Assembly (NCBI GenBank): GCA_028696075.1
Contig: JAQVHS010000002.1
Coordinates: forward strand, 37,701-101,700
Direction of reading: 5' to 3'
Origin: Candidatus Gastranaerophilales bacterium
GTDB lineage: Bacteria; Cyanobacteriota; Vampirovibrionia; Gastranaerophilales; JAILCC01
Length of the DNA: 64,000 bases
Shown here piece after piece: positions 42,830 through 51,534 of this stretch (within the stretch, counting starts at the first letter, position 1; the number at the start of each line of letters is the position of its first letter). The notes below the pieces were generated by a model, which was given only the letters and a program-made list of their open reading frames with translations, was not told where the DNA came from and did no database searches. Both the position numbers and the translations under genes were made by a program.

Positions 42830-43088
42830 AAACAGTTCAATTTAATTTTAGACTTTAATTTATATAAACCAGTATAAATCAAAACTCGATACATGACCAG
42901 TAAGTAACTAGTAATTAAGCTTGACGAGGACAATATATCTGTTAGAAATGTCTTTAAAATCCTATGCTTGTTAGATTTAGAACCTAATATTATCTTTAGG
43001 ACTTTAAAACGTGAAAGCCTCAAAGGTGTTTGTGTGACTGATTGAAAACCTTGTTGCATTTTCTTTTTTTATGCTACAATTTCTTTAA
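42830..43088. other. Intergenic stretch before the tRNA repeat array
   Basis: A 77-codon frame exists on the minus strand (42826-43059), but its start lacks a ribosome binding site and its composition is poor. I see no convincing gene, hairpin or terminator. Confidence 0.5.
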
Positions 43089-43478
43089 GCCTCGGTAGCT
43101 CAGCTCCGGCGAGCCAGCGGCGAGGGCTATAAATATAGCTCTATCCGGCTGAGGTAATTGAAAAAAGAATAATAATTAAAACTATGCCTCGGTAGCTCAG
43201 CTCCGGCGAGCCAGCGGCGAGGGCTATAAATATAGCTCTATCCGGCTGAGGTAATTGAAAAAAGAATAATAATTAAAAACTATGCCTCGGTAGCTCAGCT
43301 CCGGCGAGCCAGCGGCGAGGGCTATAAATATAGCTCTATCCGGCTGAGGTAATTGAAAAAAGAATAATAATTAAAAACTATGCCTCGGTAGCTCAGCTCC
43401 GGCGAGCCAGCGGCGAGGGCTATAAATATAGCTCTATCCGGCTGAGGTAATTGAAAAAAGAATAATAATTAAAACTAT
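43089..43478 (+). repeat. Four tandem repeats made from the 5' half of tRNA-Arg, sense plus antisense
   Basis: Units start at 43089, 43186, 43284 and 43382 (97, 98, 98 and 97 bp) and are nearly identical. Each begins with the first 15-16 bases of the tRNA (GCCTCGGTAGCTCAG), continues with a unique GC-rich part and a hairpin (CTATAAATATAG), then GCTCTATCCGGCTGAG, the reverse complement of tRNA bases 11-26, and ends with an AT-rich spacer. The intact tRNA takes the place of a fifth unit. CTCAG-CCGG can pair with CCGG-CTGAG inside each unit. Confidence 0.95.
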
Positions 43479-43552
43479 GCCTCGGTAGCTCAGCCGGATA
43501 GAGCAACCGCCTTCTAAGCGGTAGGTCATGCGTTCGAATCGCATCCGAGGTA
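43479..43552 (+). tRNA. tRNA-Arg (anticodon TCT)
   Basis: 74-base cloverleaf: acceptor GCCTCGG/CCGAGGT (one G-T pair), D arm GCTC/GAGC, anticodon arm ACCGC/GCGGT with loop CTTCTAA (anticodon at 43513-43515), variable AGGTC, T arm ATGCG/CGCAT with TTCGAAT, discriminator A. CCA is not encoded; six T residues follow. It reads AGA. Derived repeats lie on both sides. Confidence 0.95.
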
Positions 43553-43742
43553 TTTTTTATGCAAAAAATTGCGAACGCCTGACCTACGGTCGAACAGAAT
43601 TTATAATGCCTCCGCAAAGCTGCGGCTGGCGAATCGCATCCGAGGTATTTTTTATGCAAAAAATTGCGAACGCCTGACCTACGGTCGAACAGAATTTATA
43701 ATGCCTCCGCAAAGCTGCGGCTGGCGAATCGCATACGAGGTA
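43553..43742 (+). repeat. Two tandem repeats made from the 3' half of tRNA-Arg, antisense plus sense
   Basis: Units 43553-43647 and 43648-43742, both 95 bp and almost identical. Each holds CGAACGCCTGACCTAC, the reverse complement of the tRNA variable/T-stem region with one mismatch, then a hairpin CCGCA-AAGC-TGCGG, then the last 18 bases of the tRNA (CGAATCGCATCCGAGGTA; the second copy has one change). TGCGA-CGCC and GGCG-TCGCA can form an outer stem. The layout mirrors the upstream array. Confidence 0.95.
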
Positions 43743-45187
43743 TTTTTCTTGGCAAGAGTCAAAATTAACGAAGTAAGCAAACGGCAAAGTATAGTCATAG
43801 CTTACTTTTTTGTCTTTTATGGTACAGTTCGATAATAAAAATTTAAGCATTCTCCCCTTTTCTTTATTATTTTGGGATAAATACTTACCATAAGCGTTTT
43901 TCAAAAATTCTAAAATTTTAACTCCTTCATCGTAATATTTTTTATCGGCATTATGAAATGCTTGCAATGAATTTTCTATTTCTTCAATTTGATTTGTCCA
44001 TTCTTGTTTTTTCTCAAGCCAAAATTCATTATCAACAATACCGTCAAGCTTGTCTATGTATAATTTATCTAATCTGCCTTTGATTTTTTTATGTTGTATC
44101 TGCAGACTGGTAATTCTTTCTTCGCTAAATTTTATTTTGTCAGCTAAACTTTCTTTTAAGCCTACTTTGATATATTCACGGTGTTTATCATCTAATGTAA
44201 CGGCTCTGACGGCAGTATCAAATTGTTTTTCAAGTTCTTCTTCTCTGATATAGTTTTTCTTTTGGGAACAGGTTTTGTCGTGTCCTGTGCAATGATAATA
44301 AATATATTTCCCCTTTTTTATTTCCGCTGTTATTGCACATCCCCATTCTGCACACTTTAATAAGCCTGCAAATGCAAAATCATGGTCATTTCTATATAAT
44401 GGCTTGTTATCTTTCTTAAACGCTCTTTGAACATCATCAAATAGTTTTTCTGAAATAATCGCATCATGCCTGCCCCTATAAATTTCATCCTTGAATTTTA
44501 ATACTCCTGCATAGTTAATATTTTTAAGAATTTGTTCAAGTTGTCCTTTGGAAATTTTTGGAGAACTTGGAGTATAAGTATATTTTTCATCAACTAGAAT
44601 TTGTCTTACTTTTTCTAAAGATAAATCACCTTGAGAATATAATTCAAAGGCACGTCTTCAAAGGGAGCTTTTTCTTCATCAACAATGGTTGTCTTGGGGT
44701 CAATCTTTTTATAGCCGTATGGAACTTGCCCAATAAAATAACCTTCTTGTGCTTTTTTTAATCGTCCTTTTTGGGTTTCTTCTCGTAAGTTATCAATAAA
44801 GTTCTTTGCCATTAAGACTTTAATGCCATGAACAAACTTTTGGTGTGAAGTTGCATTTTTGCCAATTACTTCATTTTCTTTGACTAAATGAATTATAAAA
44901 TCATCTTCGCCAATTTCCACATAGTCTTTAAAGTTCCTGTAAAATCTATCAGTTTTTTCTACAAGTATCGTTTTGACGTCTTTGCTAGACTGTAAAAATT
45001 TAATCATTTCATTGAATTTTATTCGTCCGGCTTGCTTTGCTGTTTGTGATTCTTCAAAGGTTTTTACTATTTCAATATTGTTTTTCTTAGCGTAATTTTT
45101 AAGCAAATCAATTTGAGCAGGAATAGAAAACCCTTCCTTTTCCTGTTCTTCTGATGAAACTCTTGCATAAATTATGGCTTTAATCAT
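43584..45187 (-). pseudogene. Large serine recombinase, single frameshift
   Basis: Reads from ATG 45187 as a resolvase catalytic domain (IYARVSSEEQ with the nucleophilic serine; KTDRFYRN). The recombinase domain starts well (EGYFIGQVPYGYKKI), but the frame breaks near 44650, after KAPFEDV, and stops at 44615. In the next frame the protein continues without a break: AFELYSQGDLSLEKVRQIL, a zinc ribbon (LLKCAEWGC, HCTGHDKTC), a coiled coil and the C-terminus. One base deletion explains it. The last 53 or so codons lie inside the tRNA-derived repeats, so the natural end has been replaced or extended. It overlaps the higA stop closely. Sequencing error cannot be excluded. Confidence 0.85.
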
Positions 45188-45188
45188 A

Positions 45189-45623
45189 TTATCCTCGTTT
45201 TAAATTTAATGCTTGGATATTAACATTATTTACCTTATTTTCAGGGCTTTTTATGCTTTCGCCATTTGAAGGATTTCTTCCAACTCTTGCTGTCCTTTTT
45301 GCTGTTTTTTTGCCAACATCCATGTTTGTGGATTTAAACGGAATAATCTTCGCCAAATCTTTTTCAATCTTACGATTTTGCTCAAGTAATTCAAGATTAG
45401 CTTGCAAACGCAAAAAGTAACCTTTTGAAAGCCCAAAATATTTTGTAAGTCTTAGGTCTGTATCGGCTGTAATATTTCTTTGTCCTCTTACAATAGCATT
45501 AATTCTATTTGAAGGAACATTGATAGCAACTGCAAGGGCATTTTGAGAAATATTCAAAGGCTCTAAAAACTCTTCAAATAAAACTTCTCCAATATGTGGA
45601 ATCGGAATTAATTCTTCTTTCAT
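45189..45623 (-). CDS. higA: HigA-family antitoxin with HU-arm-like basic tail
   Basis: 144 residues. N-terminal XRE domain of the HigA/VapI type (about 5-75: HIGEVLFEEFLEPLNISQNA, VPSNRINAIVRGQRNITADT). Residues about 105-131 read KKTAKRTARVGRNPSNGESI then KSPENKV, close to the beta-arm signature of HU (ARKGRNPQTGKEI in this organism's HU). AGGAG precedes the ATG. It is expected to neutralise the HigB toxin encoded just upstream and repress the pair. Its stop is one base from the recombinase start, so recombinase expression may be tied to antitoxin translation. Confidence 0.85.
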   Translation of the reverse strand: MKEELIPIPHIGEVLFEEFLEPLNISQNALAVAINVPSNRINAIVRGQRNITADTDLRLTKYFGLSKGYFLRLQANLELLEQNRKIEKDLAKIIPFKSTNMDVGKKTAKRTARVGRNPSNGESIKSPENKVNNVNIQALNLKRG

Positions 45624-45655
45624 AATAATTTCTCCTATTTTAATTATATATTTAT

Positions 45656-45684
45656 ATTATACACTACGTACAACATATAATCAA
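45656..45684 (-). promoter_or_regulatory. Promoter of the antitoxin gene
   Basis: On the minus strand: TTGATT (45684-45679), 17-base spacer, TATAAT (45661-45656), then a leader with AGGAG. It lies between the toxin and antitoxin genes and would let the antitoxin be made independently. Confidence 0.6.
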
Positions 45685-45721
45685 CCCCTTGCATGAAGTT
45701 TTTTGAAGAAGTATTTGGAAA

Positions 45722-46003
45722 TTAGTGATAGTCTATTATTTCTACATTAATAGCGTCATTGTCAACCCAATTAAAACAAATTCTGTACTGCTGATTAACC
45801 CTAATAGAATATTGCCCTTTTCTATCACCTTGAAGCTGTTCCAAAAAATTTGCCGGTGGAGTTGTCAAATCATCAATACTTTCAGCAGCATCAATACTAT
45901 ATAGTTTTATTAAAGCCCTGCGTTGAATTTCATGCGGAATTTTTTTTGAAAATTTACCATTATAAATTTTTTCAGTTTCTTTACATTTAAACGATTTAAT
46001 CAA
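45722..46003 (-). CDS. higB: HigB/RelE-family toxin
   Basis: 93 residues; an mRNA interferase of the HigB group that cuts mRNA on the ribosome. Diagnostic phrases: IKSFKCKETEKIYNG, IQRRALIKLYSIDAAESIDD, LEQLQGDRKGQYSIRVNQQY, RICFNWV. The ribosome binding site AAGGGG (46016-46011) is seven bases before the TTG at 46003 and too close to the TTG at 46009, so 46003 is preferred and gives MIKSF, the normal family start. It precedes higA, as in standard higBA loci. Confidence 0.88.
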   Translation of the reverse strand: MIKSFKCKETEKIYNGKFSKKIPHEIQRRALIKLYSIDAAESIDDLTTPPANFLEQLQGDRKGQYSIRVNQQYRICFNWVDNDAINVEIIDYH

Positions 46004-46202
46004 TTTCAAACCCCTTAGTAAATTCTTATTACAATTATTTTACAATAAAAATGGACTTTTAATTCCAAGTTATAATTCTTCATGGAATTAACGAGTGGCT
46101 TAGTGGTACCAAAAGGATAATTATTTGGAACAAACTTCTTGGCTTTTGTTCTTAAAATATTTGGAAGAATTGGCGTCGAGTCGAAAAAACTTTGTCTGGT
46201 CA

Positions 46203-46257: not shown

Positions 46258-49200
46258 GTGCATTTGAATTCTTCCAACATAAAAGATAATAGAAAAAGAG
46301 GTTCTGTTGCTAAGTTTCTTGAAGAAAAAATGATAGAAAATTCTAAGCTCTGCATTGTTACAGCTTATTTTACAGTTTATGCTTTTGATGCATTAAAAGA
46401 TAAGCTTGGAAGTTTAAAACAAGTCGAATTTTTGTTTGGTGAACCTGCTTTCATAAAAACTGTAAAGCCTGAAAATGCGGAATCTAAAGTCTACAAAATA
46501 GAAAATGACCAAATACAATTAGCAAGCAAATTAACACAAAAAAATATTGCAAAAGAATGCGCTATGTGGATAAAGGAAAAGGTAAAAATAAAATCAATAA
46601 AGCAAAGCGGTTTATTGCATGGAAAAATGTATCATATTACAACTCCTCAAGAACAAGAAGATGCTATTTTAGGAAGCTCTAATTTTACAATGAAAGGATT
46701 GGGGTTAGCACAAAATTCTAACATTGAACTAAATCTTGAAATTGATAGCAAAAGAGATGTCGTTGAGTTAAAAAAATGGTTTTATGAAATATGGAATGAT
46801 TCTAATTTAGTTACTGATGTTAAATCTGAAGTATTAAAACATCTAGAATTATTATATAAAAATAATTCTCCTCAAATAGTATATTTTAAAACTCTTTACC
46901 ATCTTTTTGAAAATTTTTTAAATGAAGAAAGTAGCCTAAAAGATTTAGAGAACCAAAAACAATTTACCGAAACAATGATATGGAAAAAATTATATCAATT
47001 CCAAAAAGATGGTGTAAAAACAGCTATCAATAAAATAAATAAATATAATGGTTGCATAATTGCTGATAGTGTTGGATTAGGAAAAACTTTTGAAGCTCTA
47101 GCTGTCATTAAATATTTTGAACAATATGGAAATCAAAATGTTTTAGTAATTTGTCCCAAAAAACTCAGGAAAAACTGGACTAAATATCAGGTTCAAAATA
47201 ACGATAGAACCAATCCGTTTTTGGGAGATAAATTTAGATACACAGTACTAAGCCATACCGATTTAAGTAGAGAAACAGGTTGGGTAGATAGCATTAATTT
47301 AGAAAATTTTTACTGGGAAAATTATGATTTAATAGTAATTGATGAATCGCATAATTTTAGAAACAATACAAAAGGCAGAAAGGATGAATACGGTGAAGTT
47401 AAAAAAAGCAGATATGAAAGACTTCTAGATGATGTTATTACAAAAGGTATAAATACAAAGGTTTTGTTATTATCTGCAACTCCTGTAAATAATACTCTTG
47501 ATGACTTACAAAATCAGTTATATTTCATAACAGCAGGTAAAGATGGTGCTTTTAAAGAAAATCTTGAAATTTTGAATTTAAAAAGCCTAATATCACAATC
47601 TAAAAGAGAGTTTTTAGAATGGTCAAAACAAGAAAATAAAACACAAATGACCTTACTTGACAAATTAAATCCTTCCTTTTTCAAACTTTTAGATGCTTTG
47701 ACAATTGCTCGTTCTAGAAAACATATCAAAAATCATTATCCTGAGTCTTTGAAAGAAATAGGAGCTTTTCCTAAAAGAAAAAAACCTCAGTCAATTTATT
47801 CCAAAATAGATTTATTGGATGAATTTCCCCACTACGATGATATTAATGATACTATATTGAATTATAAATTATCTTTGTTCACACCCGCAGTTTTCTTAAA
47901 AGAAAAGCATAAAAAAGAATATGCAGAACAGTCTAAGATAGCTCAATTTACTCAAGAGAGTAGAGAAAAATTTCTAATTGGGATGATGAAATCGAATTTT
48001 TTGAAACGGTTAGAAAGCTCTGTATATTCTTTTAAAATAACTCTTGGTAACACAATTCAGAAAATAGATAATTTAATTGGAAAAATTGATAAGTTTGAAA
48101 AATATGATTTTGATGACTTCGTTTTTGAAGATTATGAAGATAATGAATTAAATGAGATGTTAAGAGTTGGTAAAAAATTAAAATATGACTTAAAAGATAT
48201 CGATTTAGACGACTGGAAATATGCTCTAAATAAAGATAGAAATGAATTAGAAAAATTATATAGAAAAGCTTTAAAAATAACTCCCGAAAGAGATGCAAAA
48301 TTAAATGAGTTAAAGAACTTAATTTCTGAAAAAATTAAAAATCCTACATTAGATAAATTTAACAAAGGAAATAGAAAAGTTGTTGTTTTTACAGCATTTA
48401 GTGATACTGCAAAATATATTTATGACAACATAAAAGATTATATAAAAAATGATTTAAATGTTAATATAGCTTTAGTTACTGGCAGTGACTCAAATACAAC
48501 TTTGGGCAAAAATGATTATGATGAAATTTTAATTAATTTTTCACCTATTTCAAAAGAAAGAGCCAATCACAATATATTAGAAGAAATTGATATTTTGATT
48601 GCAACTGATTGTATTTCAGAAGGTCAAAATTTACAAGATTGTGATTATTTGATTAATTATGATATTCATTGGAATCCGGTTAGACTTATTCAAAGATTTG
48701 GACGTATAGATAGGATTGGAAGTATTCATAATGAAATTCAACTTGTTAATTTCTGGCCCACTGATGACTTAAATAAATATATAAAATTAAAAAACCGGGT
48801 TGAAGAAAGAATGACATTAGTTGACGTATCAGCAACCAATGCAGATAACATTCTTAGCCCTGATGAAATTGAGGAGGTAATTAAATCGGATTTAAAATAT
48901 AGAGACAAACAATTAAAAAGAATGAAAGATGAAATTCTTGATTTGGAAGATTTTGAGGAAGGAATATCCTTAACCGATTTTACCCTGGAAGATTTCAGAT
49001 TAGAATTAATAAGTTTTATTCAAACCAATAAAGAATTATTAGAAAAAATGCCTCTAGGAATAAATGGTGTTACTTCACGAGAAATCTTATCGTTAAGTGG
49101 CGATAAGCACAATTTATCACAAGGAGTTATTTTCTGTTTGAAACAATTAAACAAGCCTAAAGACAAAGAAAATATAAATCCATTACAACCGTATTTTTTA

Positions 49201-49524
49201 GTTTATATAACTATGGAAGGGGTAATAAAATACACTTTTGTTAATACAAAAAAAATATTAGAGATATATAGAGCATTATGCTCCAACAGAACTGAACTCG
49301 ATGAATCCTTATATGAATTGTTTGATGAACAAACTTCCAATGGTCAAGATATGGAACTTTTTAACGATTTATTAAACAAAGCCTTAAGAAAAATAAAAGA
49401 AAAATTTGAACATAAAATGTATGATAATTTGTTTAATGTAAGAGGAGGGAAAATCCCCAAATTCAATGAACTAATAAATAGTAACGAGGATTTTGAACTA
49501 ATCACGTGGCTTGTAATTATTTGA
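46258..49524 (+). CDS. PLD-nuclease-like / SNF2-type helicase fusion
   Basis: 1088 residues. N-terminal phospholipase-D-like domain (about 15-200): LCIVTAYFTVYAFDAL, then the HxK motif LLHGKMYHI (121-123) with DAILGSSNFT. A superfamily 2 helicase follows: LYQFQKDGVKTAI, Walker A DSVGLGKT (270-277), IDESHNFRNN (about 361-370), LLLSATPVNN, and the C-terminal half with ATDCISEGQNL and LIQRFGRIDRIG (about 778-825). The last 200 residues are helical. GTG 46258 is the first in-frame start. However, ATG 46235 lies just after a -10 box and would read straight into the protein (MKFTKEK-IVHLNSSN) if one A were added in the A5 run, so the true start may be 46235. Six bases separate it from the sigma-fusion gene. 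Similar PLD-helicases accompany restriction and defence systems. Confidence 0.85.
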   Translation: MHLNSSNIKDNRKRGSVAKFLEEKMIENSKLCIVTAYFTVYAFDALKDKLGSLKQVEFLFGEPAFIKTVKPENAESKVYKIENDQIQLASKLTQKNIAKECAMWIKEKVKIKSIKQSGLLHGKMYHITTPQEQEDAILGSSNFTMKGLGLAQNSNIELNLEIDSKRDVVELKKWFYEIWNDSNLVTDVKSEVLKHLELLYKNNSPQIVYFKTLYHLFENFLNEESSLKDLENQKQFTETMIWKKLYQFQKDGVKTAINKINKYNGCIIADSVGLGKTFEALAVIKYFEQYGNQNVLVICPKKLRKNWTKYQVQNNDRTNPFLGDKFRYTVLSHTDLSRETGWVDSINLENFYWENYDLIVIDESHNFRNNTKGRKDEYGEVKKSRYERLLDDVITKGINTKVLLLSATPVNNTLDDLQNQLYFITAGKDGAFKENLEILNLKSLISQSKREFLEWSKQENKTQMTLLDKLNPSFFKLLDALTIARSRKHIKNHYPESLKEIGAFPKRKKPQSIYSKIDLLDEFPHYDDINDTILNYKLSLFTPAVFLKEKHKKEYAEQSKIAQFTQESREKFLIGMMKSNFLKRLESSVYSFKITLGNTIQKIDNLIGKIDKFEKYDFDDFVFEDYEDNELNEMLRVGKKLKYDLKDIDLDDWKYALNKDRNELEKLYRKALKITPERDAKLNELKNLISEKIKNPTLDKFNKGNRKVVVFTAFSDTAKYIYDNIKDYIKNDLNVNIALVTGSDSNTTLGKNDYDEILINFSPISKERANHNILEEIDILIATDCISEGQNLQDCDYLINYDIHWNPVRLIQRFGRIDRIGSIHNEIQLVNFWPTDDLNKYIKLKNRVEERMTLVDVSATNADNILSPDEIEEVIKSDLKYRDKQLKRMKDEILDLEDFEEGISLTDFTLEDFRLELISFIQTNKELLEKMPLGINGVTSREILSLSGDKHNLSQGVIFCLKQLNKPKDKENINPLQPYFLVYITMEGVIKYTFVNTKKILEIYRALCSNRTELDESLYELFDEQTSNGQDMELFNDLLNKALRKIKEKFEHKMYDNLFNVRGGKIPKFNELINSNEDFELITWLVII

Positions 49525-49530
49525 GGTTTT

Positions 49531-51534
49531 ATGGAAACATCAAACTTAGAAATTGAAAAAATAAAACAAGCTTTGTCTGATTTTGATAAAGCTACTTTAT
49601 TTGATGCTAGTATTAAATTGCTTAATTCTTTAGGATATTCATCAGAATATAAAATATCGCACCTGAATAACCCACAAGTAATATATCAAAAGTTGAATTT
49701 TAATAAAGAAAAAGCTTTGTATTATAAATGGCAAAAAGCAAGTTTTTTATTTCAATATACAGAAGAAGCCTTAAATGAAAAGTTAAAAGAATACAAGTTA
49801 AAAATCTCAAAAGAATATGACCAAAATTATATTTTTATGAGTATTAAATTATCAGGTTTTTTCTATAAAGAAAATGAGTTAAGAGCTATTTCAAAAGAAA
49901 TAAATAAATATTCTTTAAATCCGATAATTATTTTATTTAAGTATGGAAGAAATCTAGCTCTTACTTTTATAGAGCGTAGAAAAAATAAGATTAATGAAGA
50001 AAAAGATGTTTTTGGTGATACTTATTTTGTAATAACTGAGTTTAAAAATGCAACTGATGTTGATGCTAAAAAATTATATGAGTTTTCAGTTGATAAAAAA
50101 CCGCGTACTGTTTCTATTACAGATACTCAAATATCCAATGTAAACAAACCTATTAAGCAAAAACTTAATATTGAAGAATCTAAAGAAAAATATGTGCAAC
50201 AAAAATTTGATTTTGACATTGAATTAGAAAAAAAAGATGAACAAGAGAATCAAAATAAAGAAATTAATGAAAAAGATTTCTACAAAAAACAAGTCATTGA
50301 AGATAAAATAGATGCGGAAATTAGCATAAAGACCTTGGAAGAATATATTAAAAAGGCTGCTGAAAAGCAGGCTTATGACTTTGATGAAGAAAAAGACTTT
50401 TATACACAAGAACAAAAATCATATATAGATGATGTTGTTAAGACCTATTTAAAAAATATAGGCAAATACAAATTATTGTCACCAGAAAAAGAAATTGAGC
50501 TAGCCAAATATATTGAAAATGATGGAAAAATATCAAATCTTCAAGAATTAGAATTATTTCACAGTAATTTACGTTTAGTTATTTATGTAGCTAAAAAATA
50601 TGATTGGCAATTAAAACACATGGACTTTATTGATATTATTCAAGAAGGCAATTTAGGGCTTTTAAAGGCTGTTGAAAAATTTGACTATACAAAAGGTTGT
50701 AAATTCAGCACTTATGCAACTTGGTGGATAAAACAAGCTGTAACTAGAGTTATTGCTGACCAAAATAGAATAATAAGATTACCTGTTCATATAGATGAGA
50801 AGATAAATAAAATCAGAATAATTTCAAGTAAAATGGAGTTTGATTTACAAAGAAAGCCGACAAATGAAGAGCTGGCTCTTCATTTGGGTATATCAGTAGA
50901 AAGATTAAATGAATTAAAAACTTATGATTTGTCAGTATACTTATTGGGAGATAACTTGGGTAATACTGATTTAACTATCGAAGATAATCTAGACGCTAAA
51001 AATAATTCTATATATGATTATGAACTTAAAGTTCGAAGAGAGACATTGTATAAATTATTAGGCTGTTTATCTCCTAGAGAGCGTGATATTTTAAGATTAA
51101 GATTCGGTCTGGACGATAGTAGAGAAAGGACTTTAGAAGAGATAGGTAAACTTTTTGGTGTAACTAGAGAAAGAATAAGACAAATAGAAGCTAAAGCTTT
51201 AAAAAAATTGAGACATCGTAGAAGATTAAGTTATTTAAAAGATTTCGTAGAAGAAGAATACTTGCATGAGAAATTATGCCCCACAATATTGTTTAAGACA
51301 AAAAATAATGCTACGTATATCCCTAGCGTTAAAGAAATTTTAGAAAAAATTATTGAAAATAAACCTGAAATTAAAAATCAAAAAGATGCAGTTTTTCAGG
51401 AATTTGAAAAAATAGCTTTAGAATGTGGATATGCTTATGAAGATTTCCCATCTTTATCAGCATTACAAAAACTATACGATAGGCTAACTAATCCTCAAAA
51501 AAAAAACGCAATTCAAAGGTTTTGGTATCTCTGA
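49531..51534 (+). CDS. Sigma factor with restriction-methylase-like N-terminal domain
   Basis: 667 residues as read. Residues about 1-190 resemble the N-terminal domain of Eco57I-type methylase/restriction proteins that sit next to PLD-helicases: KASFLFQYTEEAL, ELRAISKEINKYSLNPIIIL, FKYGRNLALTFIERRKNKIN, EEKDVFGDTYFVITEF. Residues 190-295 are a charged linker. Then a complete RpoD-like sigma: region 1.2 DDVVKTYLKNIGKYKLLSPE, region 2 at about 340-420 (IIQEGNLGLLKAVEKFDYTK, YATWWIKQAVTRVIADQNRI), region 3 at about 430-495, region 4 at about 505-570 (LSPRERDILRLRFGLDD, GVTRERIRQIEAKALKKLRH). Residues 570-667 are an extra helical tail. The catalytic methylase domain is absent. GAGG lies before the ATG. 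It probably acts with the helicase, as the genes are coupled. The end may be frameshifted (see 51496-51649). Confidence 0.85.
   Translation: METSNLEIEKIKQALSDFDKATLFDASIKLLNSLGYSSEYKISHLNNPQVIYQKLNFNKEKALYYKWQKASFLFQYTEEALNEKLKEYKLKISKEYDQNYIFMSIKLSGFFYKENELRAISKEINKYSLNPIIILFKYGRNLALTFIERRKNKINEEKDVFGDTYFVITEFKNATDVDAKKLYEFSVDKKPRTVSITDTQISNVNKPIKQKLNIEESKEKYVQQKFDFDIELEKKDEQENQNKEINEKDFYKKQVIEDKIDAEISIKTLEEYIKKAAEKQAYDFDEEKDFYTQEQKSYIDDVVKTYLKNIGKYKLLSPEKEIELAKYIENDGKISNLQELELFHSNLRLVIYVAKKYDWQLKHMDFIDIIQEGNLGLLKAVEKFDYTKGCKFSTYATWWIKQAVTRVIADQNRIIRLPVHIDEKINKIRIISSKMEFDLQRKPTNEELALHLGISVERLNELKTYDLSVYLLGDNLGNTDLTIEDNLDAKNNSIYDYELKVRRETLYKLLGCLSPRERDILRLRFGLDDSRERTLEEIGKLFGVTRERIRQIEAKALKKLRHRRRLSYLKDFVEEEYLHEKLCPTILFKTKNNATYIPSVKEILEKIIENKPEIKNQKDAVFQEFEKIALECGYAYEDFPSLSALQKLYDRLTNPQKKNAIQRFWYL

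Follow-up and report, generated by a model that had tools for sequence, protein, structure and literature searches.

The tRNA-Arg(UCU) gene of the window (the whole 64,000-nucleotide stretch of Candidatus Gastranaerophilales DNA analyzed here) is intact and is flanked on both sides by arrays of short repeat units, which carry pieces of this same tRNA in sense and antisense. We consider it probable (roughly 0.6) that such arrays are accretions of mobile units that are small (~95–215 bp), non-coding and palindromic and for which tRNA genes serve as safe sites. The whole array (43087–43747) comprises four units 5′ and two units 3′ of the tRNA, as follows:

43087–43183, + strand: 5′ unit 1, 97 bp; tRNA 5′ end in sense from 43089, hairpin core, then antisense, AT-rich linker
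43138–43156: antisense of tRNA bases 12–27 within 5′ unit 1
43184–43281, + strand: 5′ unit 2, 98 bp; antisense at 43235–43253
43282–43379, + strand: 5′ unit 3, 98 bp; antisense at 43333–43351
43380–43477, + strand: 5′ unit 4, 98 bp, tRNA-proximal; antisense at 43431–43449
43478–43553, + strand: intact tRNA-Arg(UCU) (ARAGORN; Rfam RF00005, 68.2 bits)
43535–43629, + strand: 3′ unit 1, 95 bp, in register with the tRNA 3′ end; its order is tRNA 3′ end, T-rich stretch, antisense T/variable arm (~43571–43587), hairpin GCCTCCGCAAAGCTGCGGC (43608–43626)
43630–43724, + strand: 3′ unit 2, 95 bp, identical to 3′ unit 1
43725–43747, + strand: displaced last copy of the tRNA 3′ end, 23 nt, with one substitution; adjoins a serine-recombinase remnant

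The four 5′ units are nearly identical, the sole differences being the length of one A-run and the outer edge of unit 1, and each of them carries tRNA bases 1–17 in sense and bases 12–27 in antisense (an exact match of 16 nt). In the 3′ units the antisense of the T/variable arm (43571–43587) is imperfect, with one mismatch in approx. 16 positions as judged by eye. The first-pass annotation of the window had described these sense/antisense arrays (four units of 97–98 bp on the 5′ side of tRNA-Arg and two of 95 bp on the 3′ side) and had placed them correctly. It had also proposed that each unit can fold; one 5′ unit is predicted to form a stable RNA structure on the tRNA strand (−33.6 kcal/mol, z = −3.7), but the predicted stability of the 3′ unit is not unusual (z = −0.6). 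Gaps of approx. 100 N are present within two more arrays of the same assembly (L051 and L053), and exact copy numbers of identical units are therefore unsafe.

Several other features were noted around this tRNA. A large serine recombinase (43750–45187, − strand), split by a frameshift so that the N-terminal resolvase domain lies in one frame and the remainder in another, directly adjoins the last copy of the tRNA 3′ end, and a similar-looking sequence is located downstream of tRNA-Arg in locus L013 (genome G049). Beside this remnant, an HTH protein and a HigB-like toxin (45189–46009, − strand) form a probable toxin-antitoxin pair on an island remnant, and the region 46258–51534 (+ strand) encodes a PLD-SNF2 helicase of 1088 aa and, behind it, a sigma-70 protein of 667 aa that carries a long extension at its N-terminus. 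The sequence GGAGGGAATATACAGATACCCC...CCCTCTGGATCCAA constitutes a conserved leader directly before tRNA-Arg(UCU) in several genera (L012, L013, L021 and L022). In L027, L068 and L012, the remains of a second version of tRNA-Arg(UCU) lie beside the intact gene, suggesting from sequence that one tRNA gene may have been replaced by another at this locus.

Units of a comparable kind are present at many other tRNA genes, as emerged from the search of related genomes that the first-pass annotation had recommended. For each of the 35 tRNA genes detected in the genome containing the window, copies of its ends were sought, a copy being defined as an exact match of at least 13 nt, in sense or antisense and no more than 450 nt away, to either half (5′ or 3′) of the gene itself. 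Such copies occur at 16 of the 35 genes of this gut bacterium, compared with 0.1 expected by chance when the flanks are swapped between the tRNAs of the genome. The pieces are tRNA-specific, i.e. every unit matches its own tRNA. Examples are provided by the tRNAs for Ala, Phe, Arg(CCG), Arg(ACG), Asp and Gly (5′ side) and for Lys, Met, Pro, Phe, Ala and Asp (3′ side), and the unit period is approx. 84–147 bp in most arrays and at least 200 bp in a few. Genome G002, which belongs to the same family, has no such copies at any of its 33 tRNAs. Copies were found at 9 of 25 tRNAs in G055, a representative of another family whose other members also contain many of them; no 5′ antisense was detected in G055 and G077 at the threshold used.

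The core of the 5′ units (class A) of family f2 consists of tRNA bases ~1–11, ACTCTGCCGA, a variable hairpin, GAGAGG, a piece of the D-arm and an AT-rich leader; many of these units (most of those inspected) have no antisense piece. The leader often contains TTGAAAATTnAATA, which is more frequent where the tRNA has a 5′ copy (29/92) than where it has none (15/206). The sequence GGCACTCTGCCGA occurs 38 times, in seven of nine genomes, and its reversed control 0 times. A scan of GTDB contigs for the class A motif (ACTCTGCCGA-hairpin-GAGAGG) yielded 153 sites, in loci that are nearly all from Gastranaerophilales. At 98 of these sites the motif is located upstream of a tRNA on the same strand, within 318 nt (median distance 60 nt), 36 sites are near the ends of loci or contigs, and the remaining 19, situated elsewhere, include several that lie, in mirror orientation, 3′ of tRNA-Gln, as well as a few chance matches in other phyla. 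The same ACTCTGCCGA...GAGAGG hairpin is thus used 5′ of tRNAs in one orientation and, inverted, 3′ of them, which agrees with the earlier suggestion of a palindromic element acting on both halves of the tRNA. The number of 5′ units is variable: four are present on the 5′ side of tRNA-Lys(CUU) in G080 and one in G087, and the numbers on the 5′ side of the Cys-Val locus differ between G050 and G058.

The 3′ units (class B) are built in the order terminator, GAGAAC with T-stem antisense, sense T-stem with TTCGA, structured core, AAGACA, and the tRNA 3′ end from the T-loop. For core class B1, analysis of 15 aligned sequences with RNAalifold gave 24 pairs, 14 of them with compensatory changes on both sides (one pair was seen as UA 7, AU 4 and GC 4 times). 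The B1 model matches 77 of 97 genomes, with no more than 26 matches per genome; the genomes lacking a match include G002, G004, G024, G030, G033, G088, G090, G092 and G094. A tRNA is located directly 5′, on the same strand and usually ~85–110 nt away, in 21 of the 30 best-match loci, and six of the nine others hold a tRNA according to Rfam. The last three (L386, L394 and L395) are orphan 3′ units, which end in an apparent tRNA-Asp 3′ end with no tRNA left nearby; they were probably displaced by an island entering the tRNA. In a third class of units the core is inverted.

Elements of the B type are also found away from tRNAs, where they form head-to-tail chains or are nested in one another. Chains of different class B elements (GCGGATTT...AAATCCAAGACA) were observed in L345, L353, L364, L354 and L366, and L181 (1504–1766), L322 (3635) and L363 provide cases of class B nested in the hairpin loop of class A and of class A nested in the core of class B. 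Terminators and cores differ between units located at a single tRNA. Within the 70 nt that follow the tRNA, a terminator-like hairpin is present at 45 of the 70 tRNAs that have a 3′ copy (and at 135 of the 228 that have none), and many 3′ units therefore lie beyond a terminator.

The breakpoints were analyzed in a set of 311 distinct tRNA genes, which is enriched for units by the way in which it was fetched; a 5′ copy is present at 97 of these genes and a 3′ copy at 72. Of the 97 5′ copies, 82 break off at base 11 or 12, a figure inflated by the motif used for fetching, and the 3′ copies start mostly 13–20 nt before the tRNA end.

The tRNA-Gly(UCC) gene, whose right flank is common to five species of genus g25, permits a comparison of closely related loci that differ in their units: one is present in G048, G064 and G084, two in G073, and three in G052. 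Compared with the one-unit state, G073 contains exactly 212 bp of extra DNA directly at the tRNA, and 289 of 290 bases outside this segment are identical. The segment is bounded by a 25-bp direct repeat (AGTCTCGTCTTCCGCTAATAAAGAA), which extends from the T-loop to just past the gene. In G052 a further unit, of 188 bp, likewise adjoins tRNA-Gly(UCC), and in G077, which also belongs to g25, this place is occupied by a unit of another class. From these sequence comparisons, units appear to be gained or lost as wholes at the edge of the tRNA, and one kind appears to be substituted for another. The 212-bp difference as such could reflect insertion or a deletion through the 25-bp repeat, which would look the same. 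Repeated gains are favored because varied units with their own terminators are present at one locus (tRNA-Arg in G050, G055 and G058), and gain rather than loss would mostly be behind the differences in units. A search for an empty site at the tRNA-Arg locus common to G050, G055, G058 and G070 revealed no unit-free relative. Since no close relative combines an empty tRNA-Arg locus with shared flanks, the event that gave rise to the array of the window is reconstructed from other loci.

We propose that a unit would enter beside a tRNA gene at a fixed point, i.e. (i) the D-stem/loop on the 5′ side, or (ii) the T-loop/T-stem on the 3′ side, a trans-acting recombinase or transposase joining it at the D- or T-arm. 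Since the unit itself would supply a copy of the tRNA end that is cut off, the gene would stay whole, with the old end pushed outwards. The units have no ORF and would therefore be moved in trans. Two copies of the tRNA end would then flank a unit, and unequal crossing-over between them could increase or reduce the number of identical units; such crossing-over fits the 4+2 array of the window, the units of which are almost identical. The hairpin arms hold antisense stretches matched to the target tRNA, and this match might come from copying of the target during insertion or from later correction of the palindrome, both of which are possible. The units would be selfish or neutral. Their opposite orientations on the two flanks of tRNAs, and the chains and nesting seen elsewhere, suggest DNA-level elements rather than one RNA function.

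Several candidates for the mobilization of the units were considered and rejected. Mobilization by RAYT/IS200 transposases is not supported, since Y1_Tnp (PF01797) was found neither in the genome of the window (G000) nor in the unit-rich G055, G077 and G080. Cas1 (PF01867) was detected in 23 of 97 genomes, including that of the window, and is absent from G055, G058, G010, G050, G063, G065, G093 and other unit-rich genomes; it is therefore not correlated with the units, which speaks against a Cas1/casposon system. An autonomous parent transposon was not seen in the loci read. In viral contigs, class A and class C gave two matches each, all by chance, and the class B core gave none. The pattern GATGAGAAC...GTTCGAGCG gave 37 matches in these contigs, of which 36 lack a tRNA and were read as coding sequence; the only real one is a tRNA-Ala unit (L423), apparently in the host flank of a provirus. 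Carriage of the units by phages was therefore dismissed.

Other explanations for the arrays have to be weighed against mobile units. Fold-back template switching within tRNA palindromes might generate sense/antisense chimeras that slippage then multiplies, without any mobile element, and would account for antisense pieces that are exact copies of the neighboring tRNA arm and for tandem, near-identical units. We regard such a mutational origin as unlikely, since cores that are not derived from tRNA are conserved between different tRNAs and genera, the breakpoints are constant, terminators and cores vary among units at one tRNA, and the same elements also occur away from tRNAs. Repeated template switching as the sole cause, offered as an option in the first-pass annotation, is likewise at odds with cores shared across species and with units that come and go as clean segments. 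About equally improbable is an origin as integrase scars, each unit being either a minimal att cassette that depends on an integrase or the leftover of a larger tRNA island from which the inside was lost. The 25-bp core, running from the T-loop past the gene end, does resemble an att core, site-specific integration would agree with the tRNA-proximal order, and the array of the window is bordered by a serine-recombinase remnant. Islands do enter these tRNAs: at tRNA-Ile of G055 (L336/L337) we found the remnant of an island, 2 kb long, which encodes a Fic-like protein and a fragment of an integrase and whose att core spans the anticodon loop to the 3′ end. However, this classical att duplication, starting at the anticodon loop, is separate from the unit located beyond it, no full-length parent with the 25-bp core was seen, and the 5′-side units would require a second, rare kind of integration. 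The earlier statement that plain att duplication is an insufficient explanation is, on balance, supported.

It is still less probable that the units are functional leader or trailer RNAs that control tRNA expression or maturation, e.g. by antisense pairing with the D- or T-arm. In favor of such a role, the 5′ units fold stably on the strand of the tRNA, covariation supports the B1 structure, and RtT of E. coli is annotated as a small RNA. Moreover, in the fold predicted for unit 4 together with the tRNA (z = −5.1), the antisense at 43431–43449 forms a 16-bp helix with the D-arm and the 5′ strand of the unit takes the acceptor stem, whereas a 5′ unit alone is predicted to fold on itself; these modeled alternatives could possibly act as a switch. 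Yet pairing with the D-arm is not general, and antisense pairing is not a common denominator, because many 5′ units of family f2 have no antisense and many 3′ units are located beyond a terminator-like hairpin. The mirror orientation on the two sides of tRNAs, the lack of units at all 33 tRNAs of G002 and the undetected 5′ antisense of G055 and G077 also argue against this role. The remaining concern, raised in the first-pass annotation, was an artefact of assembly or amplification. Contigs do break in arrays, some of which contain N-gaps in the assembly of the window, but the same architecture, with different sequences, is present in many independent assemblies from several projects, which makes an artefact extremely improbable.

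Mobile units are the explanation that we prefer, and the closest known case is, by analogy, the tyrT/RtT system of E. coli, which appears to work alike and to have a similar architecture. The 178-bp repeats of tyrT/tyrV (RtT, RF00391; rttR) are, like the units described here, tandem, non-coding and located 3′ of a tRNA. Each of them ends with 19 nt of the tRNA 3′ end (bases 67–85) from the T-loop (AATCC...), as do the 3′ units of Gastranaerophilales, and starts with GATGAGAA, T-stem antisense and AAGGTTCGA, which resembles the class B head. In the one tRNA operon of E. coli examined, the repeats are confined to the 3′ side, whereas the units of Gastranaerophilales occur on both sides of many tRNAs. 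The sequence similarity is only suggestive: in direct comparisons of RtT with units, from 1 to 180 of 500 shuffles were as good, depending on the pair and the masking, and the B1 model gave no match above noise in E. coli. The RtT model, which matched E. coli as a positive control, had no match in the window or the unit loci at the gathering score, nor in six unit loci at E ≤ 5. At the gathering score, Rfam recognized only tRNAs in the window and unit loci, the other matches being below-threshold chance.

Other systems were also compared with the units. REP/REPIN sequences, moved by RAYT (Y1) transposases, are short palindromes that form chains of copies; the units differ in targeting tRNAs with matched ends and in being hosted by genomes (G000, G055, G077 and G080) without Y1_Tnp. 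Casposons use tRNA genes, and casposon/CRISPR Cas1 adds DNA beside a fixed end with target duplication, but the units are non-coding and most unit-rich genomes lack Cas1. The 25-bp duplicated core might correspond to an att duplication by a tyrosine or serine integrase, but the units encode nothing and the island att at tRNA-Ile of G055 is distinct. The B1 core CGTTTAA does not, by eye, fit GTTRRRY of the integron attC core (GTTRRRY/RYYYAAC). The nearest general kind is represented by MITE-like palindromic repeats (PMC2229807) and the SMRs of Haloquadratum (PMC3119063). Rickettsia palindromic elements and other bacterial MITE-like repeats are ~100–200 bp in length, palindromic and also found in RNA genes; they are reported as insertions inside genes, whereas the units leave the tRNA intact by means of a duplicated end and have arms that match the target (PMC2229807). 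The SMR-A elements (~110 bp, with inverted repeats and no known transposase) form nested clusters and target palindromes of other elements, namely PATEs/IS605, reportedly without target duplication, in contrast to the units, which target tRNA genes and duplicate their ends (PMC3119063). Like MITEs, the units are short, non-coding, palindromic and repeated. No report of such repeats in Gastranaerophilales/Melainabacteria was found in the open-access literature, and the units have the appearance of a family of tiny mobile elements, large and for the most part undescribed, with tRNA genes as safe landing sites. More tentatively, and with less likelihood than mobility itself, they might constitute a distinct class of non-coding, tRNA-parasitic elements, whose palindromic arms copy or read the target tRNA and whose single design enters the D- or T-arm of almost any tRNA and returns an intact gene; the enzyme would recognize tRNA-like DNA hairpins, and tyrT/RtT of E. 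coli would be a stray member.

tRNA genes are classic docking sites of phages and islands, which are large and carry an integrase. In much of a bacterial order, tRNA genes are flanked on either side by sub-kilobase, coding-free units that leave the tRNA intact and are matched to it in antisense. These units point to a new recombination activity on tRNA-like DNA, they explain the frequent breaks at tRNA genes in draft genomes of Gastranaerophilales, and they may offer a general account of how the tyrT repeats of E. coli, long known but isolated, arose.
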